A program made the position numbers and the translations under genes. Source: a virus. From it: 39,686 nucleotides of DNA. Every line of letters starts with the position of its first letter. Positions within the stretch are counted from its first letter, which is position 1. A model generated the notes under the pieces. It made no database searches, was not told where the DNA came from, and saw only the letters and a list, made by a program, of their open reading frames with translations. Of this stretch, positions 421-14,157 are shown piece after piece. Location of the stretch: the IMG/VR virus record IMGVR_UViG_3300034198_003398, positions 1-39,686 of that record. One strand, written 5' to 3'.

Positions 421-1152
421 TCACTTGACCTTAGGGCGAGCGATTATGGTTTGAGCTACACCGTCACGCTCCTCATGAGCCTTGACTGTAGCCACTACGG
501 TTATAGTAACGTTCTCTGTGAAAGCGTTGCTACCTTTATAAATAACAACATTACCTTTTTCATCTTTACAGATGTTGATGTAGGTGGTGCCGTACATGCC
601 GTCGAAGCTCAATTGCTTCTCGCAAATCAAAGTGAACTCACGCCGGGTGTTGATTATACCGACGTGTTTACTGTTGTTACGCTCGTCTTCTATTTTATTA
701 AGACGGCGCACGGCACGTTCGTGCAGTTTCTCTTGAGCACGTTGGAAGCTCTTACGGACAGCGTTGGTCTGGTTGTCAGTCAAAGCACCCCATTCATTAA
801 TGGATTCACGCATGTTATCCATAAAGTCGCCGGTGGCGTAGAATGACAACGGGTGAGACACACGTTTACATGAGCATTGGTAGTCTTTACCATCCACTAC
901 GCAGCAATGTTCCGGATACTGGTCTTCCCACTGGCTACAGCGGGGATCAAGATCCCACGCTTGAGCGTAGTCACCTTCGCTGAAAAGCCAGTCATGTAGA
1001 TTCTTAGCATCTTCATGATTTTCCATCCAACGTTTCCGGGCACCCTTGCGGCGATTTATATCGATACGGGTGTGGGCTGCGTTGATGTACGCGTCTTCGT
1101 TCTCTACATGATCAGGAACGTCGATGGTGGGATAGTAAGGTGTACGTGTCAT
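421..1152 (-). CDS. Phage protein with a Cys cluster and a likely OB-like C-terminal domain
   Basis: The start is the ATG at 1152, behind an actggagatttgaaa leader; a TTG two codons upstream is less likely. The 243-residue product has an N-terminal part with a Cys cluster (residues about 70-100, including HCCVV and CSCKR), a basic helical middle (RAQEKLHERAVRRL), and a C-terminal beta-rich region of about 80 residues containing REFTL, FDGMYGTTYIN, VIYKGSN and TVKAHEERDGVAQTI. From memory this last block recurs in phage replication-region proteins and looks like an OB-fold nucleic-acid-binding domain; that is an inference. It sits directly downstream of the primase-helicase gene but has its own operator-bearing promoter. 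A role in binding nucleic acid during replication is plausible but unproven. Confidence 0.6.
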   Translation of the reverse strand: MTRTPYYPTIDVPDHVENEDAYINAAHTRIDINRRKGARKRWMENHEDAKNLHDWLFSEGDYAQAWDLDPRCSQWEDQYPEHCCVVDGKDYQCSCKRVSHPLSFYATGDFMDNMRESINEWGALTDNQTNAVRKSFQRAQEKLHERAVRRLNKIEDERNNSKHVGIINTRREFTLICEKQLSFDGMYGTTYINICKDEKGNVVIYKGSNAFTENVTITVVATVKAHEERDGVAQTIIARPKVK

Positions 1153-1183
1153 TTTCAAATCTCCAGTTCTACGTTATGAAACC

Positions 1184-1212
1184 CTTATAGGCTCATTCCA
1201 CGTGGAAAGAAA
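1184..1212 (-). promoter_or_regulatory. Promoter with TTCCACGTGGAA operator in the spacer (copy 1)
   Basis: On the minus strand a -10-like TATAAG (1184-1189) lies 17 bases downstream of a weak -35-like TTTCTT (1207-1212). The perfect 12-base palindrome TTCCACGTGGAA occupies 1196-1207, almost entirely inside the spacer. About 80 bases around it are closely similar to the block at 4,073-4,154 on the plus strand, including the upstream A/T-rich stretch and the downstream GGGTTTCATAAC. It should drive the 243-residue gene and those after it. The palindrome's position suggests a repressor operator. Confidence 0.65.
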
Positions 1213-1244
1213 AGCCTAAAAACGCTTTAACCTAAAAATAATTT

Positions 1245-3365
1245 TCAAACGCTATACTTTCCTCCACTTGCGGAGCTCAAAACAGCCTCGTCAACCTGAA
1301 CATAATGGGTTGCGCGGCCCACCGCCTTCTCAAGATGGATCACCTCAAGCACGCCATCATCAATCATTGACGACATTGCTCTCTCCTTACGCTCTTGGCT
1401 GGCCTTTACCCCACCCTGAGCAACCGGCAGACGCTCATAATGAGAACGGCTCTTGCGCGGTTGAGTGCGCACCAACTCAATAAGGTCACGACATATGCGC
1501 TCCCAATTATCGTTTTCGCGTTGTTCCTTCTGCTCTTCTTTGAACTGAGCACGTTCACCATGCTTGAGCGGACGAGCCACAGCGTGATTGAACCAGATGT
1601 CTTTGTCGTAACCCAGAACGTCTTTGTGTGTCTCTTTATTGTTGATAAGCTCGAACACCATCTCTGGGAATTCGGTCGGGAAGCGAACCTTTGTCGCCTT
1701 TAGAATGCGAGGTGCGTCGTGCTCCTCACCATCCTTGAACACGGTGTAGACACCTTGGGCGTCGCCAGTCCAAGCCGAAGCACCACGAGGACCCAGATAC
1801 TCGGAGTCACCTGACCCCAACATCTTAGCCGTGTGGCTCACGATGATGATCGGGAAGGCGGAGAAGGACTGCTTAACGTAAGCCATAGCCCGACCTACTT
1901 CCGCGTTGTCGTTTTCGTTTTCAAGATCGAACACTGCGTTCGCTGTATCAAAAACCACCAGAGGAAGCGCGTTATATATTGTACCATCTGCTTTTTCATT
2001 TTCAACCGTCCAATCCTTATATTCGTCAGCAACCTGAGACACGACCTTTGGGTCTAGCCGGTGAGCACTGATGACGCGGACACGTTCATCAAAGTCGCTG
2101 GCTCGCATCCCGGTGAAGCCCCAAGAGTGTAACGAGTAGATGACCCGTTGAACCTGCACCACAGACTCGGTGATGATGATCACGTTGCGGCGGACAGAAG
2201 GCTTCAGCTCATAATCGACCGGGCAGAGGTGGGCCGTAGCTAGAGCCATCGGCACGATGAGGGTGGTCTTACCGACGCCCGGTGCACCCGCAACCACGTT
2301 GACCCCAGTGGACATGAAGTCATCAAATATGTATTCAAAGACTGTAACCTCACCCGCCCCACTCCGTAAAGACTTCTTGAGGCTGAGAGGATGCTCGTCA
2401 GGGTTCTCTACCGGGCTGCGGGTTACATCGTTCCCGTTACCTGACCACCCGTTGTCAATCGCCATACGGAATATCGATCGGTATGTGATTGAGTGGGGGG
2501 TATCAATGTCGCGTTCCCACTTACGGCGCTGAGCAGCGGCATCAAACTTATCGCTGTTGTCCGACCACTCCGTCCATATCTTGTAGCCGTTCTCACCATA
2601 AGGTTTGAGCACCATACCGACGTTGACCCATGTGGTGTAGTCGTCAGCATCAACGAACTTGAGAGCAGAGCGCAGGTCATCAAATGTTTGAGCTGTGGCT
2701 ACCGGAACCCCACCGCGCTCAGTCAGGCTGTAGTTAACAGGCGCACGAGCCTTGCTCGCGATTAAAGAAGGTAGCGGACTAGGTTGAGCCGGTTTACTAA
2801 TTGATAGCGGTGAGCGGCCTGACTCCCATCTGTATACCCCGGTTGAGCCTAATGTTGGTGCTACGCAGATGTAACCATGGTGCTTTAAGTCCAGACCCTT
2901 CCCTAACGTGCCGGGGTATGTCATGTCTGGGTCGGCTTTGAACAAGCGGTGTTCGCCCCCACCTTGAGTTATAGCTGTGCAGTCTGAGTGGAGCACACCG
3001 TGTTCAGCTTCAAGTGCGGCTAGGGAGTCATCACCGCCATTCTGCGGGTCAATGTCCAGAGCCAGCAGACCTGAGTCCGCAAGACTTATACCGATACCCG
3101 CGTCAGGGTCAACAGCCCACCAATCTTTGATGAGCTTCTCATCTACCGTCGCATCTTGATGCCCATGGGGTGCAAGGTCGGCTTGTGGGTGCTTACCGGG
3201 TTTGTGACCTTTTTCGTTATTAGGTCGGCCACAACGACACTGGCCGTGTTCATCAACAGACCAAACGGGCAGCACATGCCACCCCATCTTTGCGTAAGCG
3301 AGCGCGTAATCAAGAGTGGTCGGAGCTTTATCTACAGCCCAAACATGTTTACCACCTGTGGTCAC
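1245..3365 (-). CDS. Primase-polymerase / RepA-like helicase fusion
   Basis: This 706-residue protein combines three domains. Residues about 17-200 resemble the bifunctional primase-polymerase (archaeo-eukaryotic primase) domain, with the metal-binding pair ALDIDPQNGG (D104, D106) and GGGEHRLF (H139). Residues about 228-310 match the PriCT-2 type linker (DYTTWVNVGMVL, IWTEWSDNSDKF). The C-terminal part is a RecA/RepA-like hexameric helicase ATPase, with Walker A GAPGVGKTT near residue 360 and Walker B LPLVVFDTA near 472, followed by PIIIVSHTAK. It most likely primes and unwinds phage DNA alongside the family B polymerase at 12,319. The start is a GTG at 3365 preceded by GGAGG. This GTG overlaps the stop of an 11-residue ORF that carries the phage's usual leader, so translation is probably coupled. 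Confidence 0.85.
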   Translation of the reverse strand: MTTGGKHVWAVDKAPTTLDYALAYAKMGWHVLPVWSVDEHGQCRCGRPNNEKGHKPGKHPQADLAPHGHQDATVDEKLIKDWWAVDPDAGIGISLADSGLLALDIDPQNGGDDSLAALEAEHGVLHSDCTAITQGGGEHRLFKADPDMTYPGTLGKGLDLKHHGYICVAPTLGSTGVYRWESGRSPLSISKPAQPSPLPSLIASKARAPVNYSLTERGGVPVATAQTFDDLRSALKFVDADDYTTWVNVGMVLKPYGENGYKIWTEWSDNSDKFDAAAQRRKWERDIDTPHSITYRSIFRMAIDNGWSGNGNDVTRSPVENPDEHPLSLKKSLRSGAGEVTVFEYIFDDFMSTGVNVVAGAPGVGKTTLIVPMALATAHLCPVDYELKPSVRRNVIIITESVVQVQRVIYSLHSWGFTGMRASDFDERVRVISAHRLDPKVVSQVADEYKDWTVENEKADGTIYNALPLVVFDTANAVFDLENENDNAEVGRAMAYVKQSFSAFPIIIVSHTAKMLGSGDSEYLGPRGASAWTGDAQGVYTVFKDGEEHDAPRILKATKVRFPTEFPEMVFELINNKETHKDVLGYDKDIWFNHAVARPLKHGERAQFKEEQKEQRENDNWERICRDLIELVRTQPRKSRSHYERLPVAQGGVKASQERKERAMSSMIDDGVLEVIHLEKAVGRATHYVQVDEAVLSSASGGKYSV

Positions 3366-3397
3366 GACTCCTCCGATTTATAGGTTTTTGCCAGCAT
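3362..3397 (-). CDS. Putative 11-residue leader peptide upstream of the primase gene
   Basis: The ATG at 3397 sits behind ataaccggagacagctg, a version of the leader used by many genes here. The frame reads MLAKTYKSEES and stops at a TGA that overlaps the GTG start of the primase gene (GTGA). The same bases also supply GGAGG for that GTG. This looks like a translational-coupling leader. A frameshifted former N-terminus of the primase is the alternative. Confidence 0.35.
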   Translation of the reverse strand: MLAKTYKSEES

Positions 3398-3431
3398 CAG
3401 CTGTCTCCGGTTATACGTTATGTGGGTCGGC

Positions 3432-3460
3432 ATTATCGGGCTATTGTTTTGAAAAGGCAA
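3432..3460 (-). promoter_or_regulatory. Sigma70-like promoter for the primase operon
   Basis: On the minus strand TTGCCT (3455-3460) is followed after 17 bases by GATAAT (3432-3437). The start of the spacer (TTTCAAAA) closely matches the site at 11,504-11,532. It faces away from the promoter at 3,492-3,520, so this 90-base stretch is the divergent control region. Confidence 0.55.
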
Positions 3461-3491
3461 GCCCCCGCGTAAAAATATTTTTCCACCCCAC

Positions 3492-3520
3492 TTGCCTTCT
3501 GGATTGAAATGACCCAGAAT
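3492..3520 (+). promoter_or_regulatory. Sigma70-like promoter for the plus-strand operon
   Basis: TTGCCT (3492-3497) is followed after exactly 17 bases by CAGAAT (3515-3520). It lies about 46 bases upstream of the first plus-strand gene. The -10 box is weak, but the -35 box is the same hexamer seen at four other sites in this window. Confidence 0.45.
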
Positions 3521-3565
3521 GCGTAAGCGATCATTTCGCAATAACTGATAACTTGGGAGAACCCC

Positions 3566-3715
3566 GTGTATAGACTTGAAGACCTTTACGTCATTTTCAG
3601 ACAAGAGCCGACTGCCGAAGGTAAGGTAGAGCTTCTGCGCGACTGGCAGCAGTCCCGCTATCCCTTCCGTATCAATTGGAACCGCTTGATACGAATCTGG
3701 TCTAGACGCAAATGA
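3566..3715 (+). CDS. Small basic hypothetical protein (49 aa, GTG start)
   Basis: A GTG at 3566 follows gataacttgggagaacccc, a variant of the recurrent leader. The frame encodes 49 residues that are acidic at the front (LEDL) and strongly basic at the end (RLIRIWSRRK). Its TGA overlaps the ATG of the next gene (ATGA), strong support for real coupled translation. It is the first gene of the plus-strand operon, a position that in phages often carries early host-takeover factors. I recognise no family. Confidence 0.55.
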   Translation: MYRLEDLYVIFRQEPTAEGKVELLRDWQQSRYPFRINWNRLIRIWSRRK

Positions 3716-4068
3716 GGAAGATCAGCGACGCTGAAAAGAAGCGTTATGAAGAAAGTGACCGGCTGCTGGCACGGTACAAGGTCAAACGTAAAGAGTGGTT
3801 CAAGTCCACAGTTGACGAGTGTGTCCGTCCCGACGAGATGATGCGTATGTTGCGTTACATCAAGGATATGCCCCCAGCAGCAGAGCGTGACTTCATCTCC
3901 CGGCTGTCAGGTCTGCGGTGGTTGTTGGATAGCGAACCGGATGTGCGCCTCGTCGTGCTGCGAGTTATCGCCAAGAGGGTGGACAAGTTGTACGGAGAGC
4001 TAGATGACCCACTTCCACCGGGTACCAACATGTTCTTTGAAGCTAAGAGAATCCTAGCTGTTCGTTAG
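3712..4068 (+). CDS. Hypothetical phage protein (118 aa)
   Basis: This charged, mainly helical 118-residue protein starts at an ATG overlapping the previous stop. It begins MRKISDAEKKRYEESD and contains several Arg/Lys-rich helices (VLRVIAKRVDKLY). No catalytic motif, signal peptide or membrane segment is visible. An operator-bearing promoter follows it, so it and the 49-residue gene form a separate two-gene early unit. Function unknown. Confidence 0.65.
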   Translation: MRKISDAEKKRYEESDRLLARYKVKRKEWFKSTVDECVRPDEMMRMLRYIKDMPPAAERDFISRLSGLRWLLDSEPDVRLVVLRVIAKRVDKLYGELDDPLPPGTNMFFEAKRILAVR

Positions 4069-4106
4069 TTGGGCGAAATTATTTTTGGGTGCAAGCGTTT
4101 TTTCAC

Positions 4107-4135
4107 TTTACTTCCACGTGGAATGAAACTAGAGA
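4107..4135 (+). promoter_or_regulatory. Promoter with TTCCACGTGGAA operator in the spacer (copy 2)
   Basis: TTTACT (4107-4112) and TAGAGA (4130-4135) are 17 bases apart, with the perfect palindrome TTCCACGTGGAA at 4112-4123 between them. The block from about 4,073 to 4,154 aligns with the minus-strand block near 1,165-1,245: shared AAAT.ATTTTT.GGT, GCGTTTTT, the palindrome, and GGGTTTCATAAC. It drives the run of small genes starting at 4,168. Confidence 0.65.
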
Positions 4136-4167
4136 GGGTTTCATAACTTGATAACTGGAGACTTGAA

Positions 4168-4464
4168 ATGACTGACCTAGACGAATTGCTCGCCGAATTC
4201 AAAGCACTGACTGTTGAGATCTCGCTTGACGATCTTAACCCAGCCCAGCGCCGTGTAGCCGACCGTATGATTAGCTCGATAACTTTTCTGGACTACGAAA
4301 TCAAGAAGCTGTCGGTTACGCGTTTCGATAACAGTAAGCATGTCACGCTGTATGTCGAGAGCGGTCTGCCAAACGACGAGGGCACCATGGCCTCGATCTT
4401 CGGACGTCTTGAGCGCCACGTTCAAATCGGCTCACGCGGTGGTGTAAAGAACCTAAGCCGTTAA
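4168..4464 (+). CDS. Hypothetical protein (98 aa), first gene of the operator-controlled unit
   Basis: The ATG follows gataactggagacttgaa, the recurrent leader. The 98-residue product has an acidic helical N-terminus (DLDELLAEFKAL), a central helix with ISSITFLDYEIKKL, and a basic end (GSRGGVKNLSR). It is soluble, with no Cys residues or recognisable motif. It is the first gene after the palindrome-bearing promoter and so is probably expressed under the same control as the 243-residue gene at 421-1,152. Confidence 0.65.
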   Translation: MTDLDELLAEFKALTVEISLDDLNPAQRRVADRMISSITFLDYEIKKLSVTRFDNSKHVTLYVESGLPNDEGTMASIFGRLERHVQIGSRGGVKNLSR

Positions 4465-4485
4465 TTTTATAACTGGAGAACTGAA

Positions 4486-4812
4486 ATGACACAGACACAA
4501 GAATTTCTAAATGGTTGGACCGCCGCAGAGCGAGATAAGGTTGAAAGTAACGTTAAGCGTCACACCTTTCCATCGTACCGCACAGCCGATTTTGTCGACG
4601 GCTATAGATCTTTTTGGGATAACATTGAAATGACACTGAGTGATGAAATTCGCAATGACATGGCTGTTAAGGGTTATGTGTATCGACGCGATCTAAGAAA
4701 TTATCCACCGCAAAATGGTATGCGTCAGTTGTGCCGCGACCTTAGGGGTGAGGATATCAGCAAACTGATTTTTGACACAGACGCTTATCAAGCACATGGT
4801 AACAAAATCTGA
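4486..4812 (+). CDS. Hypothetical protein (108 aa)
   Basis: The start is well fixed by tataactggagaactgaa immediately upstream. The 108-residue product is soluble and rich in charged and aromatic residues (FVDGYRSFWDNIEMTL, YVYRRDLRNYPPQ). No motif is recognised. A GC-rich hairpin follows the stop, so transcription may partly end here. In position and size it resembles the small early proteins phages often use against the host or its defences, but that is only context. Confidence 0.65.
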   Translation: MTQTQEFLNGWTAAERDKVESNVKRHTFPSYRTADFVDGYRSFWDNIEMTLSDEIRNDMAVKGYVYRRDLRNYPPQNGMRQLCRDLRGEDISKLIFDTDAYQAHGNKI

Positions 4813-4822
4813 GCTTAAACCG

Positions 4823-4842
4823 GTGGGGGTTTCGGCCCCCAC
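4823..4842 (+). terminator. GC-rich hairpin, possible terminator
   Basis: GTGGGGG pairs perfectly with CCCCCAC around a six-base TTTCGG loop, 11 bases after a stop codon. It is not followed by a clear T run, so it may be a partial terminator or an mRNA-end stabiliser rather than a strong Rho-independent terminator. Confidence 0.5.
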
Positions 4843-4866
4843 AAATCTTATAACTGGAGAACTGAA

Positions 4867-5097
4867 ATGAATAATGATCGTCGTAAAGAAATCAACAAGG
4901 CTATCGGGCTACTGCAAGAGGCTCTCAGCATACTTGAGACCGCTCGTGATGAAGAGGGTTACACTTTTGAAAACATGCCTGAGAACCTGCAGAACAGTGA
5001 ACGTGGGCAGCAGACTGAAGAAGCCTACAACCAGCTTGAGGAAGCATGTTGCAACCTTGAGGAAGTCATCACCAGCTCTGAATTCGCAGCTCAGTAA
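4867..5097 (+). CDS. Acidic helical hypothetical protein (76 aa)
   Basis: The ATG is preceded by tataactggagaactgaa. The 76-residue product is very acidic and nearly all helical, with heptad-like segments at both ends (INKAIGLLQEALSILE and AYNQLEEACCNLEEVI), suggesting a helical hairpin or coiled-coil dimer. Charge and size would suit a DNA-mimic or inhibitor protein, but nothing proves this. Confidence 0.65.
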   Translation: MNNDRRKEINKAIGLLQEALSILETARDEEGYTFENMPENLQNSERGQQTEEAYNQLEEACCNLEEVITSSEFAAQ

Positions 5098-5108
5098 GGA
5101 GGCTTGAA

Positions 5109-5219
5109 ATGTTGTTTGACCTTGAACCATATCTACCATTCGAAGCATTCGTAATGATCTGCATATTCATCCTCGGCGCTGTTGTGTGCTGGGGCGAAAA
5201 TAAGAACGGAGGGAAGTAA
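5109..5219 (+). CDS. Small single-pass membrane protein (36 aa)
   Basis: The ATG at 5109 follows taaggaggcttgaa, a strong Shine-Dalgarno sequence. The frame codes for 36 residues with one hydrophobic segment at about residues 11-28 (FEAFVMICIFILGAVVCW) and a short hydrophilic tail. The next gene begins two bases after its stop, and the end of this gene (ggagggaag) provides that gene's ribosome binding site. Role unknown; it is in the early region, so it is unlikely to be a classical holin. Confidence 0.55.
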   Translation: MLFDLEPYLPFEAFVMICIFILGAVVCWGENKNGGK

Positions 5220-5220
5220 C

Positions 5221-5592
5221 ATGAAGCTATATCGCACACCGACCGGTCATTGGGCTGGCACTAAGGACGAAGCAATCACCATCGCTAAGGTGCACGACAC
5301 CACTTACGAGCAGTATGATGTGCCTTACGACAAAGCAGGTCTGCTCGCATTCCTGAATGGTTTTAAGGTCGGCGCTACACCGGCTGCAAATAGCCCGGTA
5401 GATGACGAACCTTTCGTGATAGTCAGGACGCCGGTCTTTGTCAAGCCATCTGAGGTTACACGCTCATCACCACAGAAGATACAAGACCGTATGGAGCTTG
5501 AGGATGCTATCTTAGCGGCTCCGTTAGACACTGCTGTGGCTCTTGCTGAGTTGGTTATGTGTCGCATTCGTGACTTTACTAAGGGGAAGTAA
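5221..5592 (+). CDS. Hypothetical protein (123 aa)
   Basis: The start chosen is the ATG at 5221, just behind ggagggaagtaac; a longer frame from 5182 would overlap the 36-residue gene and lacks a good site. The product begins MKLYRTPTGHWAGTKDEA and has a central proline-rich section (PAANSPVDDEP), ending in a helix with Cys (LAELVMCRIRDFTKGK). The N-terminal 45 residues resemble a short alpha/beta domain common in small phage proteins, but I cannot name it. Its stop codon lies inside a hairpin. Confidence 0.6.
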   Translation: MKLYRTPTGHWAGTKDEAITIAKVHDTTYEQYDVPYDKAGLLAFLNGFKVGATPAANSPVDDEPFVIVRTPVFVKPSEVTRSSPQKIQDRMELEDAILAAPLDTAVALAELVMCRIRDFTKGK

Positions 5593-5602
5593 CTTTCCCC
5601 TT
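5581..5602 (+). terminator. Hairpin overlapping the stop codon, probable terminator
   Basis: AAGGGGAA (5581-5588) pairs with TTCCCCTT (5595-5602) around a six-base loop that includes the TAA stop of the preceding gene, and is followed by a short TTC. It probably ends the 4,168-5,592 transcript before the next promoter. Confidence 0.55.
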
Positions 5603-5629
5603 TTCAAACCAGAATTACACCCCTATAGA
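5601..5629 (+). promoter_or_regulatory. Putative promoter before the 56-residue gene
   Basis: TATAGA (5624-5629) lies 17 bases after TTTTCA (5601-5606). The surrounding CCTTTTCAAA...ACACCCCTATAG resembles the site at 11,504-11,532 (TTGCCTGTTCAAAA...ACGCCTATAG). The -35 match is poor. If active, it would start the long transcript that includes the hypermodification genes. Confidence 0.35.
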
Positions 5630-5661
5630 TACACAGATAACTTGATAACTGGAGAATTGAA

Positions 5662-5832
5662 ATGCAACGTATTGCTGATTACACCGCCCCTACTAAACGC
5701 CAAGATGGCTACCTAAGAATTAGCGTGCTTGAGGCTGGTCGCCGTCACATTATAGCTGAGCACCGGGTTGACGGTAAGATAGCCGCTCGCCATGTAGCCG
5801 CCCAATACGCCGCCAAACCTTGGAACTTTTAA
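5662..5832 (+). CDS. Small basic hypothetical protein (56 aa)
   Basis: The ATG follows gataactggagaattgaa. The 56-residue product (from MQRIADYTAPTKRQ to AAQYAAKPWNF) is basic, with a predicted strand-helix pattern and no Cys or membrane segment. The next gene's leader begins right after its stop. No known family. Confidence 0.6.
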   Translation: MQRIADYTAPTKRQDGYLRISVLEAGRRHIIAEHRVDGKIAARHVAAQYAAKPWNF

Positions 5833-6612: not shown

Positions 6613-7035
6613 ATGACCGAAGTAAACTTTACGAGCATGACGCTCAGCCAGCTTGTCAAATTCTATAACGAGCACACTGACAGACCTGTTAAGAAGTTCC
6701 GTGACCGTGCTACGGCGGAGAAGCGTTGTGTTGAACTAATGTACGCAACACTTAAGGAACCCAAAGTGGAAACTGTTGAACAGCCTGAACCTACCGGCAA
6801 AGAGCGACCCCTGATGAAGACGTCGCTCAAGCTGGACCGCCAGATCATTCGCATTGACAGCGAGCAAGTTTGGAAGAATGCTCACACCATGTGGGTTGAG
6901 AACCCTGATTGGATGACGAGTAGCCAGCAAGACCGGCTCACGGCTCAATTATATAAGGCCGCTAAACGCGGTGAGCAGATTGTCGTGACTGTCAACGATA
7001 TCAGCTTCCAGCTTCTTAACGTATCTGAGGTGTGA
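6613..7035 (+). CDS. Hypothetical phage protein (140 aa) with an N-terminal LVKFYNEH motif
   Basis: The start follows atttggagattaccg. The N-terminal 45 residues (LSQLVKFYNEHTDRPVKKF, then DRATAEKRC) match a short helical domain I have seen repeatedly in small phage proteins, of unknown function. A variable linker follows, then a C-terminal alpha/beta part with VWKNAHTMWVENPDWM and QIVVTVNDISFQLL. Its stop lies three bases before the PLP enzyme start, so the two are very likely co-translated. It may be the first member of the modification operon or an unrelated early gene. Confidence 0.6.
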   Translation: MTEVNFTSMTLSQLVKFYNEHTDRPVKKFRDRATAEKRCVELMYATLKEPKVETVEQPEPTGKERPLMKTSLKLDRQIIRIDSEQVWKNAHTMWVENPDWMTSSQQDRLTAQLYKAAKRGEQIVVTVNDISFQLLNVSEV

Positions 7036-7037
7036 AC

Positions 7038-7997
7038 ATGAGTAAGAGTATTTTCCCCACATTGTCAATGAAACGTGCTGACGTTCGCTGGGAAGACCAC
7101 CTTGGTGACCTGACCCCTTGGGAGAACCATCAGGGTATCTGGTTCAAGCGGGAGGACTACTTCGCTCCGCTCGGTTATAGCGGACCTAACGGCTCTAAGA
7201 TGCGGCAGCTCATCTGGTTCATGAACAGGTTCCGTGGTAACAAGACGCACATCGTTACGGGTGCTAGTGTCCAGTCGCCTCAGCTGAGCATGAGTGCGAT
7301 TGTGGGTGCCCACTACGGTCTCAAGTGTCGTCAGGTCGTATACAGCAAACCCCATACCGTGCTCAAGCACCCTAACCCAGCTGTGTCGCATGGCTTTGGT
7401 GCAGTGTTTGAATATGCTACCGGGCCGTATAACCCGATCATTCAACGTAAGGTTGCCGACCTAACTCAGGACAGCTCGCTCGTTGTTGAGTATGGTATCA
7501 CGCTCCCCATCAGCAAGTACAGCCCAGAAGATGTGCGTAAGTTCCATGAGGTCGGTGCTAATCAGACCAAGAACATTCCGGACGACGTTGAAGAGCTGAT
7601 CATCCCTGCGGGTTCTTGTAACTCACTCACGAGCATCTTGCTTGGGTTGAGCCGTGACTCACACAACATCAAGCGCATCTTCACTATCGGTATCGGACCT
7701 GACAAGGCTGAGTGGACGCATGAGCGGTTGCGTTACATGGGTGTTGACGCTAGCAAGTTTGACTTTGAATGGCAGCACTACTCTCTGCACGACAACGGGT
7801 TCAGCAAGTACAGTGACCACTTCACTGGTGAGAGCTTTGACGGTATCAATTTCCACCCGACCTACGAGGCGAAGATGTGGCGTTGGCTCAGGCAGAACGA
7901 TTACATCAGTTGCGACAACAAGACTGGGTTCTGGATTGTTGGTTCAGCTCCTAGCGTCAAGGTCATTGAACCATTCTACACTTACGGAGAACATTGA
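7038..7997 (+). CDS. Fold-type II PLP-dependent enzyme (ACC deaminase / Trp synthase beta-like), predicted DNA-base tailoring
   Basis: This 319-residue protein resembles the tryptophan synthase beta superfamily, closest in layout to ACC deaminase/D-cysteine desulfhydrase. The N-terminus has WFKREDYFAP followed by NGSKMRQL, where K54 should form the internal aldimine with pyridoxal phosphate. VTGASVQSPQLSMSA corresponds to the substrate carboxylate/asparagine loop, and IPAGSCNSLTS to the Gly/Ser phosphate-binding loop. Free-living relatives deaminate or beta-eliminate amino acids. Here it heads an operon of DNA hypermodification genes, so it probably alters the amino-acid group attached to thymine; that role is inferred. 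The ATG at 7038 is preferred over an in-frame GTG at 7032. The next gene overlaps it by one base (TGATG). Confidence 0.75.
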   Translation: MSKSIFPTLSMKRADVRWEDHLGDLTPWENHQGIWFKREDYFAPLGYSGPNGSKMRQLIWFMNRFRGNKTHIVTGASVQSPQLSMSAIVGAHYGLKCRQVVYSKPHTVLKHPNPAVSHGFGAVFEYATGPYNPIIQRKVADLTQDSSLVVEYGITLPISKYSPEDVRKFHEVGANQTKNIPDDVEELIIPAGSCNSLTSILLGLSRDSHNIKRIFTIGIGPDKAEWTHERLRYMGVDASKFDFEWQHYSLHDNGFSKYSDHFTGESFDGINFHPTYEAKMWRWLRQNDYISCDNKTGFWIVGSAPSVKVIEPFYTYGEH

Positions 7998-8995
7998 TGC
8001 GTGACTTCCGTCTCCCTGAAAACAGGCTTGAGTATTTCAGCAAGCTGTATCAGATGAACCTGATGTACGGTGTTATGCCGGGTCTGGTCTATCTTTACAT
8101 GCCGTCGCTGGCAGCTAAGTATAAGTGGGACAACGAGCAGCGGTTGTGGTTCGCTTTCCTCAATGGTATGACGCAGAACCCAATCACGTCGCTCATCATG
8201 TTTGAGCAGCTACCTATGTGCCCCCCGGCGGGTGCCCAACTGGTTAAGTTTGACGAGTGGTTCAATGAGTCTTGGGATGTGCTCCAGTTTGATACGGACC
8301 GCCGTTATCAAAAGAAGGAGACCGTCGCAGCTATCAAGAAGTATGCCGAGCTGGTTGAGCAGCACGGGACGCAGGAAATGATGCTGACCGGTAAGACCTA
8401 CCAAGAGTTGTGGAAGATAGTGTCGCAGTACGTGTCGTTCGGTCGACTGTCCTGCTTCAGCTACCTTGAGTATGTCTACCTGAATGGGTTCGGCGCTGAC
8501 TGTGATGACCTTATGTTCAGTGACAAGTCAGGTAGTAAGTCTCATCGCAACGGTATGCTCCTGCTCACCGGGCAGGACGCACTGGTGTGGGACAAGCGAG
8601 CTGATAACGGCTTTGATGGTAACTACGATAACTTTGATAAGATGTGCTCGTGGTTGAATGGTAAGGCTGAAACGTTCCTCGGTAGCTTCAAGGTCAACAA
8701 CAAGAGCTTGATATACGCGGGTAACTTTACCATGGAGTCTAACCTCTGCACGTTCAAGAACCATTTCTACGCTCGCCGCTATCCCGGTGTGTATGCTGAT
8801 ATGGCTTGGGAGCGTATCCTTTGGGCTGACGAGCATGGTCATCGCGAACACACAGCACCTTTCAAAGATATCCGTAAGGAGTATCTACCTGACTGGTTGC
8901 TTTGTGAGTTGACTAAGGACAACATGACGATTAAAGAACGAGCAGTGGTCTTTCCTGAGACCGGTAAACCTTATCGTGCGGAGCATTTTCTATGA
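7997..8995 (+). CDS. Amino acid:DNA transferase-like hypermodification protein (ADDT family)
   Basis: This 332-residue, mainly helical protein matches my memory of the amino acid:DNA transferase (ADDT, formerly aGPT-PPlase) family. Features near the N-terminus are NEQRLWFAFLNGMTQNPIT (residues 46-64), the aromatic stretch LIMFEQLP, and FDTDRRYQKKET (98-109). In characterised phages, proteins of this group replace the (pyro)phosphate on 5-hydroxymethyl-dU in DNA with an amino acid or polyamine. It is translationally coupled on both sides: TGATG with the PLP enzyme and ATGA with the kinase. The start is the ATG at 7997 behind ggagaacattg. Which clade of the family it belongs to is uncertain. 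Confidence 0.6.
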   Translation: MRDFRLPENRLEYFSKLYQMNLMYGVMPGLVYLYMPSLAAKYKWDNEQRLWFAFLNGMTQNPITSLIMFEQLPMCPPAGAQLVKFDEWFNESWDVLQFDTDRRYQKKETVAAIKKYAELVEQHGTQEMMLTGKTYQELWKIVSQYVSFGRLSCFSYLEYVYLNGFGADCDDLMFSDKSGSKSHRNGMLLLTGQDALVWDKRADNGFDGNYDNFDKMCSWLNGKAETFLGSFKVNNKSLIYAGNFTMESNLCTFKNHFYARRYPGVYADMAWERILWADEHGHREHTAPFKDIRKEYLPDWLLCELTKDNMTIKERAVVFPETGKPYRAEHFL

Positions 8996-9573
8996 AGAAA
9001 CAGATTGTTAATATTCGCGGTTGTAACGGAAGCGGTAAGACGACGATTGTCCGTCGCTTCCTTGATAAGTTGTCTAACGAGCCGCTCGGGGGTAAGCCCG
9101 GTCGTCCTGCAGGATACAAGGTTGACGCCTCACCATGGGGTATCAATATTCCGGTGTTCGTCATCGGCAGTTACGAGAACACGTGTGGTGGTGCTGACGG
9201 CATCAACACTCAAGAAGAGATTGCCGAGCGGGTTGTCAAAGCTGTCGGTCATGGTCATGTGTTGGTAGAAGGTCTACTGATGTCCAAAAGCTCTGATAAA
9301 GGTCACGTGGCTCCTATTCTCAAAGAGCATGGCGCGATATTCGCATTCCTTGATACGCCTTGGGATGTGTGTCTTGAACGGGTTTTAGCTCGCCGTGAGG
9401 CTGCGGGTAATGACAAGCCGTTTGACCCTGACAAGACGATGCGGTCGGCTTATGACCAATGTCACCGCAGTTATGAGTTGTTAACCGAAGCCGGTGGATA
9501 CGCAGTACGTTGGCTTGATTGGCAAGACCCCATTACCGGGGTGGTAAACTATTTAAGGAGTGCTGAGAAATGA
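8992..9573 (+). CDS. P-loop kinase, predicted 5-hydroxymethyl-dU DNA kinase
   Basis: This 193-residue P-loop protein begins MKKQIVNIRGCNGSGKTT with Walker A GCNGSGKTT at residues 10-18. Later come GSYENTCGGADGINTQEEI and the Walker B-like strand HVLVEGLLMS. The combination of IVNIRG..GSGKT, G.YE..CGG.D.I and VL.EGLL is typical of the small kinases that accompany thymine hypermodification genes in phages such as ViI and M6, where the kinase phosphorylates the base 5-hydroxymethyl group in DNA. It shares ATGA overlaps with both neighbours. A generic nucleotide kinase is the main alternative. Confidence 0.65.
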   Translation: MKKQIVNIRGCNGSGKTTIVRRFLDKLSNEPLGGKPGRPAGYKVDASPWGINIPVFVIGSYENTCGGADGINTQEEIAERVVKAVGHGHVLVEGLLMSKSSDKGHVAPILKEHGAIFAFLDTPWDVCLERVLARREAAGNDKPFDPDKTMRSAYDQCHRSYELLTEAGGYAVRWLDWQDPITGVVNYLRSAEK

Positions 9574-10496
9574 TTGATGAATGTCCGTTCAACATACCAC
9601 GACCAGAAACAGTTTGCACTATGGAGGGATTGTTATATTTTGTTTGGGAGCGTGAAGCTATCCGCATGGCTCGTGAAAATGGTCACCAGCGTCCGTGGAC
9701 AAACGACCCGGTTCTTGATAAATATAAATTCACCAACATTCACCGGATTGATGACCGCGTATCCAAGTGGTTTGTAAATAACTTGATTGACCCTTACGAA
9801 GATCGTGATGACTTATGGTTCACACTACTAATCGCCCGGCTTATCAACTGGCCACCCACCTTGCACGCATTGATTGATAATTACGTTATACCGTGCCACC
9901 CGACTGAGTTCGACCCTGAGCTGTTTGTGCAGGTGGTTGAGTCCTGTAAAGAAAATCAAGAAAAGGTTTACTCAGGTGCATACATGGTATACCCTACAAA
10001 GATGGACCCCGGCGGTAACAAGTCTCAGGCGATAGCTACGCATATAATCGGTGCGGCTATTGAAAAGTGGGAGGACATTCAGTATGAGATCACCCGCACC
10101 GATCGCCTGACGAGCATTGCTGAGTTCGTTACGGTCATGTCACGCTGCTTCGGTATAAGCACGTTCATGGCTGGGCAAGTGGCAGCTGATTTGACGTATG
10201 CTTCTAAGGGGCAGCTTTGTGATGCTCATGATATATTCTCTTGGGCACCTATTGGGCCGGGCAGCAGTCGTGGTTTGAATTACCTGCTTGAGCGTGCACC
10301 AACCGCAGGATGGACGCAAGAGCAATTCAATATTGAGCTTGTCAATATACATAATGCGATTTACGAAGAGCTGGGTATTTGCACCCTGACGCTACATGAC
10401 GTTCAAAACATCATGTGTGAATACAGCAAATATTGCCGAACGGTCTTGGGCGATGGTAAACCCAAGAGCACCTACATACCAGAAACGGAGTTTTGA
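9570..10496 (+). CDS. DNA base hypermodification protein (aGPT-PPlase / HMUDK-helical family)
   Basis: This 308-residue helical protein carries the family signature ARENGHQRPWTNDPVL (34-49), KFTNIHRIDDRVSKWF (53-68) and DLWFTLLIARLINWPPTL (81-98). I associate these with putative DNA base hypermodification proteins, the group earlier called alpha-glutamyl/putrescinyl thymine pyrophosphorylases and including the helical partner of hydroxymethyl-dU DNA kinase. Further on, DPGGNKSQAIATHIIG and FMAGQVAADLTY are also typical. It either cooperates with the neighbouring kinase or is a second transferase. It overlaps the kinase stop by ATGA and ends four bases before the thymidylate synthase homologue. 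Confidence 0.6.
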   Translation: MIDECPFNIPRPETVCTMEGLLYFVWEREAIRMARENGHQRPWTNDPVLDKYKFTNIHRIDDRVSKWFVNNLIDPYEDRDDLWFTLLIARLINWPPTLHALIDNYVIPCHPTEFDPELFVQVVESCKENQEKVYSGAYMVYPTKMDPGGNKSQAIATHIIGAAIEKWEDIQYEITRTDRLTSIAEFVTVMSRCFGISTFMAGQVAADLTYASKGQLCDAHDIFSWAPIGPGSSRGLNYLLERAPTAGWTQEQFNIELVNIHNAIYEELGICTLTLHDVQNIMCEYSKYCRTVLGDGKPKSTYIPETEF

Positions 10497-10499
10497 GAC

Positions 10500-11495
10500 A
10501 TGGAAATTAAAGTTCGCAACGTTAATGAGGCATTTAGCGACATCTTCTGGAATATGAAGGCTATGAACCTTGAGCCTGAGCAGACCCGTAATGGCCCAGC
10601 GTATGTGATGCCTGAGCCGGTGACGACTATTTACACCCACCCTAATGAGCGTGTCCTGTTCAATCGCAAGCGTGACTGCAACCCTGTGTTCCACTTGATG
10701 GAGTCTATTTGGATGATGGCCGGTCGTAACGACGTCGCCTTCCTCACTCAGTTCAACAAGAACATGGTGAACTTTAGTGATGATGGTGTTACGTTCAATG
10801 CGGCATACGGGTATCGCTGGCGGCATCATTTCGGCTTTGATCAGATCCGCGCTGTCATCAAGACCCTGCAAGCTGACCCGTCTAGTCGTCAGGCCGTGGT
10901 GCAGATATGGGACTCGGCTGACCTAAAGAAGAACACCAAGGACAAGGCTTGCAATACGCAGATCATCTTTGACTTGCGCCATGGTAAGCTGAACATGACT
11001 GTTTATAACAGGAGCAACGATATCTGGTGGGGTGCTTACGGCGCTAACGCGGTGCATTTCAGTTTCTTGCAGGAGTTCGTAGCCAGTGCTCTGGGTGCTC
11101 CGCTCGGTCACTATCGCCAAGTCAGTCACAATCTCCACCTATATACTGATTTGTACGATGTGGGTGATTACCTGACCAACCCACCGGCTTATAGTGACGG
11201 TTATGAATATGGTGCTCGTGGTGTTGAACCTTACCCGATTATGGAAGACGGTGACTGGGAGACATTCTTGTACGATTGCTGTCGGTTCTGTGAGAACCCG
11301 TTCACCCCATTGAGCTACCACCATTCGTTCTTTAACGAGGTCGCTGTACCTATGGCTAACGTGATACACTCACGTCGTAACAAGCTGAGCGATGGTTTTG
11401 ACTGGGTTGCTCAAATCGCTGCGGCAGATTGGTGCGTAGCTACGAATACCTGGGTCGAGCAGCGTGAGATCAACAAAATGAAACGCGGGGGTTAA
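10500..11495 (+). CDS. Thymidylate synthase homologue, predicted dUMP hydroxymethylase
   Basis: A clear thymidylate synthase-fold enzyme of 331 residues. The catalytic cysteine is C151 in KDKACNTQIIF. The phosphate-binding PSSRQAVVQIW lies at 127-137, the substrate loop YNRSNDIWWGAYGANAV at 169-185, and HNLHLY at 210-215. The asparagine at 183 aligns, allowing a one-residue shift, with E. coli Asn177, which selects dUMP; dCMP hydroxymethylases have Asp there. In this operon the likely reaction is folate-dependent hydroxymethylation of dUMP to hmdUMP, the entry step to hypermodified thymine. An ordinary thymidylate synthase cannot be excluded by eye. The start is supported by ggagttttgagac. 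A promoter follows the gene. Confidence 0.85.
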   Translation: MEIKVRNVNEAFSDIFWNMKAMNLEPEQTRNGPAYVMPEPVTTIYTHPNERVLFNRKRDCNPVFHLMESIWMMAGRNDVAFLTQFNKNMVNFSDDGVTFNAAYGYRWRHHFGFDQIRAVIKTLQADPSSRQAVVQIWDSADLKKNTKDKACNTQIIFDLRHGKLNMTVYNRSNDIWWGAYGANAVHFSFLQEFVASALGAPLGHYRQVSHNLHLYTDLYDVGDYLTNPPAYSDGYEYGARGVEPYPIMEDGDWETFLYDCCRFCENPFTPLSYHHSFFNEVAVPMANVIHSRRNKLSDGFDWVAQIAAADWCVATNTWVEQREINKMKRGG

Positions 11496-11565: not shown

Positions 11566-12060
11566 ATGAAAGACACTATACAATTTATAGCCACTGGTGC
11601 CGAGGTAATTCGCTACCATACGGTGTTCACCTTCAACAACGAGACTGTGGGACACCATTCGCACGGTGTTGCTATGATGGTTCTCATGATGAAGCCTGAC
11701 GCTTCCGCTTCTCTGCTTAAAGCTGCGTTGTATCATGACTTAGCAGAGCAGGTTGTGGGTGATATACCTTCACCGACTAAACGTCAGTCCGGCTTAGGTA
11801 AGCATCTTGATAAACTTGAACTAGCTATAATTGAAGACGCCGGTATTGAGAATCCGAAACTCACTGATGAAGAAGCACGTATACTCAAGCTCGCTGACAT
11901 TGCTCAGGGTGCGTTATTCTGCGCTCGTGAAATTCAATTAGGTAACAAACGCCTCATCCCGGTTTTTACGCGGTATATTATTTATGCTTCGGAAAAAGGT
12001 CTTGAAGGTCGTGAAGAACATCTTTTCAACGCTATCAGGGAGATCGCAAATGAGCGCTAA
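11566..12060 (+). CDS. HD-domain phosphohydrolase (YfbR-like 5'-deoxynucleotidase)
   Basis: This 164-residue protein has the HD metal-binding pattern: an early R with VGHHSHGVAMM, then ALYHDLAEQVVGDIPSP (the HD dyad plus the E...GD..P pattern of the YfbR group), and a later Asp in LKLADIAQ. The family removes phosphate from deoxynucleoside monophosphates; relatives in phages act as dNTPases (DatZ). Next to a base-modification operon it may trim dTMP or another competing nucleotide, which is inference. It has its own promoter and the leader gctaactggagatttgaatt. Its end overlaps the next start by 11 bases. Confidence 0.75.
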   Translation: MKDTIQFIATGAEVIRYHTVFTFNNETVGHHSHGVAMMVLMMKPDASASLLKAALYHDLAEQVVGDIPSPTKRQSGLGKHLDKLELAIIEDAGIENPKLTDEEARILKLADIAQGALFCAREIQLGNKRLIPVFTRYIIYASEKGLEGREEHLFNAIREIANER

Positions 12061-12319
12061 TGACCGTCAGATTGGTGGTGACCACTACAAGAAAGGTGGC
12101 GAGGAACATTGGGACCGTCAGTGGCGGCTCTATGGTCGTGGTTACTTTGTAGGTTGCATCACTAAGTATGTTGAGCGTTACCACGAGAAGAACGGTCTTC
12201 AAGATCTTGAGAAGGCCAAGCACTTCCTTGATAAGCTTATAGAGCTTGAGTCTGCTCAAGGTCAATACCTTGAGGTTCCTAAGAGTGCGAGTTTTACAGG
12301 ATACGCGGTTAACACGTAA
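12050..12319 (+). CDS. DUF3310 family protein (89 aa)
   Basis: The start chosen is the ATG at 12050, inside the end of the HD gene and behind agggagatcgcaa; the longer frame from 11984 would overlap much more. The product carries the DUF3310 signature: IGGDHYKKGG, then YFVGCITKYVERYHEKNGLQDLEKAKHFLDKLIE. This small helical family is very common next to phage nucleotide-metabolism and replication genes; its biochemical role is not settled. Its TAA overlaps the polymerase ATG (TAATG). Confidence 0.8.
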   Translation: MSANDRQIGGDHYKKGGEEHWDRQWRLYGRGYFVGCITKYVERYHEKNGLQDLEKAKHFLDKLIELESAQGQYLEVPKSASFTGYAVNT

Positions 12320-14157
12320 TGTCAACTTGGGTTTACGATACTGAAACGATGCCAAATCGCACGTTGTTCTGCGCTAAAAACGTAGACACCGGCGAATGGT
12401 TCGACTTGTGGCGTCATGAAGACGACGCTGCGGGTAAGCTCAAGCGTTTTATAACGCAAGGGGATACTACGTTCGTAGGCTTCAACAGCAATTACTTTGA
12501 CGCTTTAGTGGTGTCAGCTTTCTGCGCTGGTCGTACGGAAGCTGAGATCAAGCGCATCGCTAATGACTTGATTGATAATCGACTGTCACCTTGGGCCGCT
12601 ATGAAGAAGTATCGGCTCAATCAGGTGATACCTGACCATATTGATTTGATTGAGGTGACACCGTCATTCGTTGGGCTTAAAGCCTACGGCGCACGCATGC
12701 ACATGCCGAAGCTGCAGGATATGCCCATCGCTCATGACGCTGTTATTTCAGTCGAGCAAGAGCCCATGCTACTGGAGTATTGCCACAACGACGTAGACAC
12801 AACTGAAGAACTTCTTAATCAGCTAGAAGGCGAGTTGTTGCTGCGGGTTGAAATGAGCCGTCGTTACGGAGTTGACATGCGCAGCAAGTCAGACTCTCAG
12901 ATGGCTGAACAGGCATACATCAGTAGCATGGGTCTCAAGCGTAAGGATAACATTATCCCGCAGACGGTCAGGTATGATGCGCCCAGCTTCCTCAAGTTCA
13001 TGGATGCTGACCTACAAGGCTTACTTGACCGTGTTCGTAACCATACGTTCAGTATGAACCCGTATACGGGTCACGTAGTGTTGCCTGACTTTTTAGGTGC
13101 TCAGACTGTTAAGTTCGGTACTGGTGAATATCAGTTAGGTGTTGGAGGTATCCACAGTACGCATGACAAGAAGGTTTGCCACACCGCCGGGGACGAAGTC
13201 ATCTGCGACATTGACGCAGCCAGCTTCTACCCAAGCATCATCCTTGAGTGCGGGTTCGTCCCCCAAGCTCTTGGGTTGCAGTTTGTTGAAGAGTATCGAA
13301 AGATCTATGAACGACGCCTTGAGGCAAAGCGTAGCGGAGATAAGATCACTGACGCTACCCTCAAGATCTCGCTCAATGGTACATTCGGTAAGTTGGCGAG
13401 CAAGTATTCTGTCCTCTACTCACCTGACCTTATGTTGGCGGTGACACTGACCGGGCAGTTTACGCTTCTCATGCTCATAGAGTGGCTTGAGCGAGCTGGG
13501 GCTGTGACGCTTAGTGCCAACACCGACGGTATAGCGATAAAGTATCCTAAGAGCCTTGAGGAGACTGTTCAGAAGGTTGTTAGCAAGTTCAGCGAGGTTT
13601 CGCGGTTCGTGTTTGAGTTCACCCCTTATCGGGTGTTAGCTATGAAGGATGTCAATAACTACATGGCGATCAAGCCTGACCGCAAGTTGAAGGCTAAAGG
13701 TATATACTCACCGCTGTCGTTACGTAAGAACCCGACAGCTCAGGTTTGTGCCGATGCGGTGGGTCAGTGGTTAGCTAATGGTGTTCCCTTCCAGCAGACT
13801 ATCAGCGCCGCTCCGTTCTGTGATTTCATCTCTGCCCGTAACGTGACGGGTGGTGGGCAGCAGATGGGTGAGTATCTGGGTAAGGTTGTAAGGTGGTATC
13901 AGTCAAACGACTCTGCGCTTGAACCTATCCTTTACGTCAAGAACGGAAACAAGGTTCCCAAGACGGATGGTGCTCGTGCATGCATGACACTACCCGATAA
14001 AGTGAAACATCCGCCGGATTTAGACTATGACTGGTATCGTAAAGAGGCTATTAAGATTGCGGTATCTGTGGGTTGTTCAAAATATTTAACTGAGGAGGAG
14101 TTAGCATTAATAGCCCCACCGCCAAAGAAAACAAGGAAGAGTAAAAATGGAAAATGA
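12319..14157 (+). CDS. Family B DNA polymerase with 3'-5' exonuclease
   Basis: This compact 612-residue replicative polymerase has proofreading motifs YDTET (6-10), FVGFNSNYFD (52-61) and YCHNDVDTT (154-162). Its polymerase motifs are A, DIDAASFYPS (297-306); B, KISLNGTFG (349-357); and C, NTDGIA (401-406). Motif C is usually DTDS; here the first Asp is Asn, but the essential second Asp (D403) remains. The C-terminus ends in a basic tail (PPPKKTRKSKNGK). It would copy phage DNA with the primase-helicase at 1,245-3,365 and must accept modified pyrimidine triphosphates if hmdUTP is incorporated. It overlaps the next gene by 11 bases. Confidence 0.9.
   Translation: MSTWVYDTETMPNRTLFCAKNVDTGEWFDLWRHEDDAAGKLKRFITQGDTTFVGFNSNYFDALVVSAFCAGRTEAEIKRIANDLIDNRLSPWAAMKKYRLNQVIPDHIDLIEVTPSFVGLKAYGARMHMPKLQDMPIAHDAVISVEQEPMLLEYCHNDVDTTEELLNQLEGELLLRVEMSRRYGVDMRSKSDSQMAEQAYISSMGLKRKDNIIPQTVRYDAPSFLKFMDADLQGLLDRVRNHTFSMNPYTGHVVLPDFLGAQTVKFGTGEYQLGVGGIHSTHDKKVCHTAGDEVICDIDAASFYPSIILECGFVPQALGLQFVEEYRKIYERRLEAKRSGDKITDATLKISLNGTFGKLASKYSVLYSPDLMLAVTLTGQFTLLMLIEWLERAGAVTLSANTDGIAIKYPKSLEETVQKVVSKFSEVSRFVFEFTPYRVLAMKDVNNYMAIKPDRKLKAKGIYSPLSLRKNPTAQVCADAVGQWLANGVPFQQTISAAPFCDFISARNVTGGGQQMGEYLGKVVRWYQSNDSALEPILYVKNGNKVPKTDGARACMTLPDKVKHPPDLDYDWYRKEAIKIAVSVGCSKYLTEEELALIAPPPKKTRKSKNGK

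Follow-up and report, generated by a model that had tools for sequence, protein, structure and literature searches.

Phages ViI and CBA120 carry 5-(2-aminoethoxy)methyl-deoxyuridine (5-NeOmdU) at about 40% of the thymine positions in their DNA (PMC11721090). The Salmonella phage ViI (Vi01) genes concerned are scattered across 157 kb. ViI reportedly installs serine on its DNA and then decarboxylates it with a pyridoxal phosphate (PLP) enzyme, and viral metagenomes have reportedly been noted, in general terms, to hold these genes in varied permutations. In Pseudomonas phages M6, which carries 5-NedU, and PaMx11, the gene order is kinase, helical protein, thymidylate synthase (TS) homologue, HD-domain protein, DUF3310 protein and DNA polymerase, with small extra genes. 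Ahead of this core lies a variable tailoring block, consisting of gp51, a PLP enzyme and a radical S-adenosylmethionine (SAM) enzyme in M6, and of a transferase, a flavin adenine dinucleotide (FAD) enzyme and an acetyltransferase in PaMx11. Here, we analyzed a five-gene operon in a 39,686-base virus record from IMG/VR (the window, meaning the whole record). Judging from its homologies, the window holds an M6-type core with a ViI-type tailoring pair in front, a hybrid of the known pathways, and the operon very probably turns part of the phage thymine into a bulky amine-bearing base. It is reliable as a hypermodification operon and moderately reliable as a maker of 5-NeOmdU. Chemistry of this kind is known, and the exchange of the kinase gene among relatives is the unexpected part.

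The operon consists of five head-to-tail open reading frames (ORFs) spanning 7038–11495, all on the plus strand, for a PLP enzyme, a putative amino acid:DNA transferase (ADDT), a P-loop kinase, a helical protein and a TS homologue (Table 1). The ATG of the PLP gene at 7038 lies 2 bases past the stop of the preceding ORF, and its TGA at 7995–7997 overlaps the ADDT start at 7997 as TGATG. ATGA overlaps join the ADDT and kinase genes (kinase ATG at 8992) and the kinase and helical genes (helical ATG at 9570). The original prediction for this DNA had described five head-to-tail genes with three ATGA or TGATG overlaps, as seen in the ORFs and the DNA junctions, but its final gap of four bases is 3 bases in the DNA, with the TS gene starting at 10500. 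A second, near-identical contig of 55 kb showed 99.98% identity to the window across 17 kb, which ruled out misassembly. IMG/VR scans provided 66 loci for the PLP gene, and 80 of 340 candidate ADDT relatives were kept. Gene order and strand were maintained in 62 of the 63 distinct metagenomic virus loci holding all five genes, which excludes chance. ADDT–kinase and kinase–helical junctions measured 20 nt or less in 55 and 47 of 62 loci, respectively, and the junctions around the kinase were mostly overlaps or very short.

Comparison with described phages by tblastn at E 1e-4 pointed to two sources. The kinase, helical, TS, HD and DUF3310 genes matched M6 and PaMx11 at 27–44% identity. The PLP and ADDT genes matched ViI (Vi01_182/orf00226, 35%, and Vi01_199/orf00247, 25%, respectively) and Glutamicibacter phage Montesquieu (32% and 38%, respectively), and matched neither M6 nor PaMx11. 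The block order was the same in M6, PaMx11 and Pam3. M6 has gp54 (kinase), gp55 (helical), gp58 (TS), gp59 (HD), DUF3310 and the polymerase in the order of the window, but its tailoring block holds gp51, gp52 (a different PLP enzyme) and gp53 (a radical SAM enzyme), none of which was matched in the window. PaMx11 shares the core and its order, with an FAD enzyme and an acetyltransferase where the window has a PLP enzyme; its transferase gp46 is a solved 5-phosphomethyl-dU (5-PmdU) glycinyltransferase. ViI also has a TS-like enzyme, but in addition to the scattering of its genes, its kinase and helical candidates gave no match to those of the window. In Montesquieu, the ADDT gene adjoins the PLP gene and helical and TS genes are present, but its kinases differ and the genes are split in two blocks. 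The five-gene system of Rhodococcus phage Tonitrus includes an aGPT-Pplase2-domain (ADDT-type) protein and a 5-hmU DNA kinase, but neither a TS nor a PLP gene is among the five reported (PMC11955845).

The additional enzymes of the M6 and PaMx11 routes were not found. The radical SAM gene expected of an M6-type 5-NedU pathway was absent from the near-identical 55 kb contig, and no match adjoining the operon corresponded to the PaMx11 arrangement of an FAD enzyme and an acetyltransferase by the kinase. No acetyltransferase of the Acetyltransf_1 family was present in the 55 kb contig or in seven related contigs (eight of the clade), and homologues of the M6 radical SAM, FAD or acetyltransferase genes were absent beside the operon throughout the metagenomic clade.

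The TS homologue matched PF00303 (E 1.5e-23), and the Pfam name, Thymidylat_synt, would suit an ordinary thymidylate synthase, in which case phage-made 5-hydroxymethyl-dUMP (hmdUMP) would not feed the operon. We consider this very improbable, given that the protein is 44% identical to PaMx11 gp51 and 42% to M6 gp58, that its closest counterpart among solved structures is a CMP 5-hydroxymethylase, and that Phe replaces ThyA Trp80, a position at which M6, PaMx11, ViI and Montesquieu carry Tyr or Phe. The protein keeps the catalytic Cys151, which is invariant in an alignment across ThyA, T4 gp42, M6, PaMx11, ViI and others. At the position of ThyA Asn177 it has Asn, the uracil type, whereas T4 gp42 has Asp. 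Based on these hydroxymethylase-like residues, with the roles that Trp80 and Asn177 have in ThyA, and on the solved match, we expect the TS homologue to hydroxymethylate dUMP.

The kinase is a P-loop protein with the Walker A motif RGCNGSGKTT, and it is 31% identical to M6 gp54 and 32% to PaMx11 gp49. Its Pfam matches were weak, with HMUDK_HMUD1 reaching 16.7 bits, under the cut-off of 27. It falls in phrog_800 (E 2e-15), which is named "terminase small subunit", as is the M6 gp54 record. We take this label to be a misannotation, given the place of the gene within a modification cassette. The helical protein belongs to HMUDK_hel (PF18723, E 1e-42) and is 33% identical to M6 gp55. Its AF2 model (pLDDT 91) was closest to 8-oxoguanine DNA glycosylases (Foldseek probability 0.99, Z ~10) and to the related fold of a queuine salvage enzyme, a level at which a common arrangement alone is possible. 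The helical protein is probably a base-flipping subunit that would present the flipped base to the kinase.

The ADDT product likewise falls in the family for which it is named (PF18724, E 8.9e-18, 65.3 bits against a cut-off of 26.2), such that both family placements proposed for the products starting at 7,997 and 9,570 held. The best solved relative of its AF2 model (pLDDT 89) was the PaMx11 5-PmdU glycinyltransferase 8z2n (Z 16.9, rmsd 3.5, 244 residues), with the next fold at Z 9.3. This model match supports amino acid transfer onto 5-PmdU. By sequence, neither ADDT nor HMUDK_hel had a match in the PDB. A profile comparison of the two families showed no significant link, despite which both models display a glycosylase-like arrangement.

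The final base was predicted from the PLP enzyme. This protein matched phrog_3650 (E 4e-83) and, weakly, the ACC deaminase family and D-cysteine desulfhydrase. It gave no match to M6 gp52. Lys54, the predicted catalytic Lys, is invariant in an alignment with ViI, Montesquieu, M6 and Pam3. The enzyme is likely a decarboxylase of a DNA-bound amino acid, of the ViI orf00226 type. The ViI relatives of the PLP and ADDT proteins bear orf numbers 226 and 247, in agreement with the gene numbers that we take to be those of the ViI pathway, in which these enzymes presumably play the roles assigned here. The most likely final base is the decarboxylated amine 5-NeOmdU because the PLP enzyme is related to that of ViI, and this decarboxylated base is the one present in ViI-type phages.

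Several observations weigh against this assignment. By sequence, ADDT is nearer to actinophage proteins (Montesquieu, 38%, and Mycobacterium phage Bane1, 37%) than to its ViI relative, the Bane1 copy adjoins a queuine transferase rather than a thymine pathway, and the shared ADDT fold leaves the donor amino acid unfixed. Moreover, no PLP gene was found in two contigs (L116, 60.8 kb, and L143, 57.5 kb), which are possibly incomplete, and the last step may thus be optional. A donor other than serine, for example glycine, would give a different amine, possibly one not described before. The actinophage proximity and the glycine enzyme as top structural match favor such a donor, but no sequence match at E 1e-4 links ADDT to the glycine branches (M6 gp51, PaMx11 gp46), and the radical SAM or FAD enzymes that accompany them are absent around the operon, which makes it rather unlikely. 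The base might also keep its amino acid intact, with the PLP enzyme making or isomerizing the free donor before transfer. Racemases, lyases and deaminases predominate among fold-type II PLP enzymes, in line with the weak matches above, and in relatives without a detected PLP gene transfer may suffice. We find this aminoacyl outcome quite unlikely, as the PLP enzyme has its relative in ViI-type phages, whose base is decarboxylated, and its gene occurs together with that of the transferase in 62 loci.

We therefore favor 5-NeOmdU over the aminoacyl-type base of the original prediction, since the PLP enzyme resembles that of ViI and not M6 gp52 and the ViI-type base is decarboxylated (PMC11721090). 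A polyamine route found no support here, and replacement of all thymine is unlikely in view of the partial replacement in ViI and CBA120. The earlier steps of the predicted scheme are supported, from hmdUMP through DNA containing 5-hydroxymethyl-dU (5-hmdU) to its phosphorylation and the transfer of an amino acid. In the pathway that we propose, the TS homologue would convert dUMP to hmdUMP, and the phage DNA would be built with 5-hmdU, as its residues and synteny suggest. By homology, the kinase and its glycosylase-fold partner, which would flip the base, would then phosphorylate the hydroxymethyl group to 5-PmdU in chosen sequence contexts. ADDT, whose family and fold are established, would swap the phosphate for an amino acid, most likely serine by comparison with ViI, and the PLP enzyme would decarboxylate the attached amino acid to leave 5-NeOmdU at some T positions. 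The first two steps would come from the M6-type core and the last two from the ViI-type pair, and the kinase, which is exchanged among relatives, may let them alter which thymines are modified. We regard this full proposal as probable. Resistance to restriction in this phage is a fair inference from the modified base. The operon thus offers a compact route to an amine-bearing DNA base, predictable gene for gene in a widespread group of uncultured phages, and its five enzymes are open to in vitro testing.

The kinase differed from its neighbors in how it varied among the metagenomic loci. Its pairwise identity was two-peaked, at about 0.44 between and 0.69–0.78 within two large classes, whereas for every other gene, identity was nearly the same whether or not two loci shared a kinase class. 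Three kinase classes (K1, K2 and K3), each a single clade in the kinase tree, had been set from kinase identity before a tree of PLP, ADDT and TS was built. On that tree, the classes require ten changes, and placing K2 in one clade was rejected (delta lnL 453, approximately unbiased (AU) p 0.0006). Among close pairs, the kinase fell more than 20 points below its neighbors in 28 of 70, a count that does not equal 28 events as the pairs share ancestry. The same drop occurred in 0/67 pairs for PLP, 0/74 for ADDT, 1/74 for the helical gene, 3/74 for TS, 0/68 for HD and 0/38 for the polymerase. For the pairs L043/L053 and L037/L056, the drop in identity has its left and right edges within about 30 nt of the kinase start and stop, respectively; the left edge was less sharp for L045/L057. 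The kinase gene alone has been swapped, cleanly near its ends, among three alleles, and this looks new.

A related 5-hmdU DNA kinase has been reported to be sequence-selective (PMC7653180, PMC6449724), and kinase swaps could therefore change the modified T positions. We tentatively suggest, at somewhat less than even confidence, that the kinase serves as a specificity module open to exchange, with the chemistry kept while swaps re-pattern which thymines carry the bulky base. No residues of the helical partner tracked kinase class at the 75% level. One of a dozen tests for a mark of kinase class in genome composition gave a slight difference in dinucleotide use (TG 1.12 for K2 versus 1.07 for K3 loci, p 0.008), which we do not count as evidence because GC and ancestry differ as well. 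Alternatively, homing endonucleases by the kinase could drive its replacement through gene conversion, rather than selection on target choice. GIY-YIG and HNH-like ORFs, identified by eye, do occupy some operon gaps, such as kinase–helical in L032 and helical–TS in L089. However, most kinase neighborhoods are gapless, including those of the swapped pairs examined, and neighboring genes were not replaced to the degree of the kinase; we judge homing unlikely. Replacement of the kinase alone raises the testable question of what picks the hypermodified thymines and whether the pattern shifts with hosts. If the specificity module is real, recombination would re-pattern DNA modification against host nucleases, akin to specificity-gene exchange in restriction systems.

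Table 1. Genes of the operon and its surroundings in the window, and an additional ORF of related loci
Feature	Position	Strand	Basis
PLP-dependent enzyme, fold type II (ACC deaminase/D-cysteine desulfhydrase-like)	7038..7997	+	phrog_3650, Vi01_182 relation
ADDT / aGPT-PPlase2, predicted amino acid:DNA transferase on 5-PmdU	7997..8995	+	PF18724, AF2 model
P-loop kinase, predicted 5-hmdU DNA kinase, allele class K2	8992..9573	+	Walker A, M6 gp54 and PaMx11 gp49 relation, phrog_800
HMUDK_hel / aGPT-PPlase1, putative helical partner of the kinase	9570..10496	+	PF18723, M6 gp55 relation, AF2 model
TS homologue, predicted dUMP hydroxymethylase (hmdUMP synthase)	10500..11495	+	PF00303, residues, PaMx11/M6 relation
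Small conserved protein, possible sixth operon member	6613..7035	+	phrog_4730 E 4e-8
HD-domain 5'-deoxynucleotidase (YfbR-like)	11566..12060	+	PF12917 E 9e-12, synteny
DUF3310 protein	12050..12319 (listed ORF begins 11984)	+	PF11753 E 8e-8, synteny
Family B-like DNA polymerase, same conserved block	12319..14157	+	phrog_1252 E 3e-161, synteny
Methyltransferase-like protein of ~250 aa	L007 5667-6437; L010 3726-4493; L065 8957-9724; L145 3461-4219

The operon is flanked by conserved genes. M6, PaMx11, Pam3, P26218 and the metagenomic loci all have the HD gene at this position, and its nucleotidase product probably lowers the dTMP pool. A homologue of the small protein upstream lies within 700 bp of the PLP gene in 85 of 115 loci, a count that includes repeated copies, and a similar protein precedes ADDT in L116.

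Gene content also varied among relatives. L096 and L119 have their PLP gene at another place in the contig. A scan of extra ORFs in the PLP–ADDT gap of relatives found one dCTP deaminase and one DHH-type protein, neither of which is a known tailoring enzyme. A dCTP deaminase-like gene follows the PLP gene in K1-clade operons (L082, L085 and L089), and its product could feed dUMP to the hydroxymethylase. In one subclade, the gap between PLP and ADDT holds a gene whose product carries the motifs EPFGGCGVFS and CDFPFF and looks by eye like a methyltransferase (Table 1); this protein gave no Pfam or PHROG match and might be a further tailoring enzyme. The Bane1 relative of ADDT (L015 1789–2847) lies by a queuine tRNA-ribosyltransferase gene, which points to a 7-deazaguanine context, and its vicinity lacks TS and PLP genes. 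This may be a meeting point of T and G pathways, or else ADDT acts more widely. L145 carries a variant block (969–5675) with genes for a possible oxygenase of the TET/JBP type, recognized by eye, as well as a transferase-like protein, a PLP enzyme, the methyltransferase-like protein, ADDT and a different P-loop protein. This block adjoins a terminase-like gene, TS and the usual kinase are absent within the locus, and 5-hmU may be made in DNA in this case. Finally, ADDT, PLP and kinase-like genes lie at 7001–9053 of L093, on a contig binned as an Actinomycetota metagenome-assembled genome.

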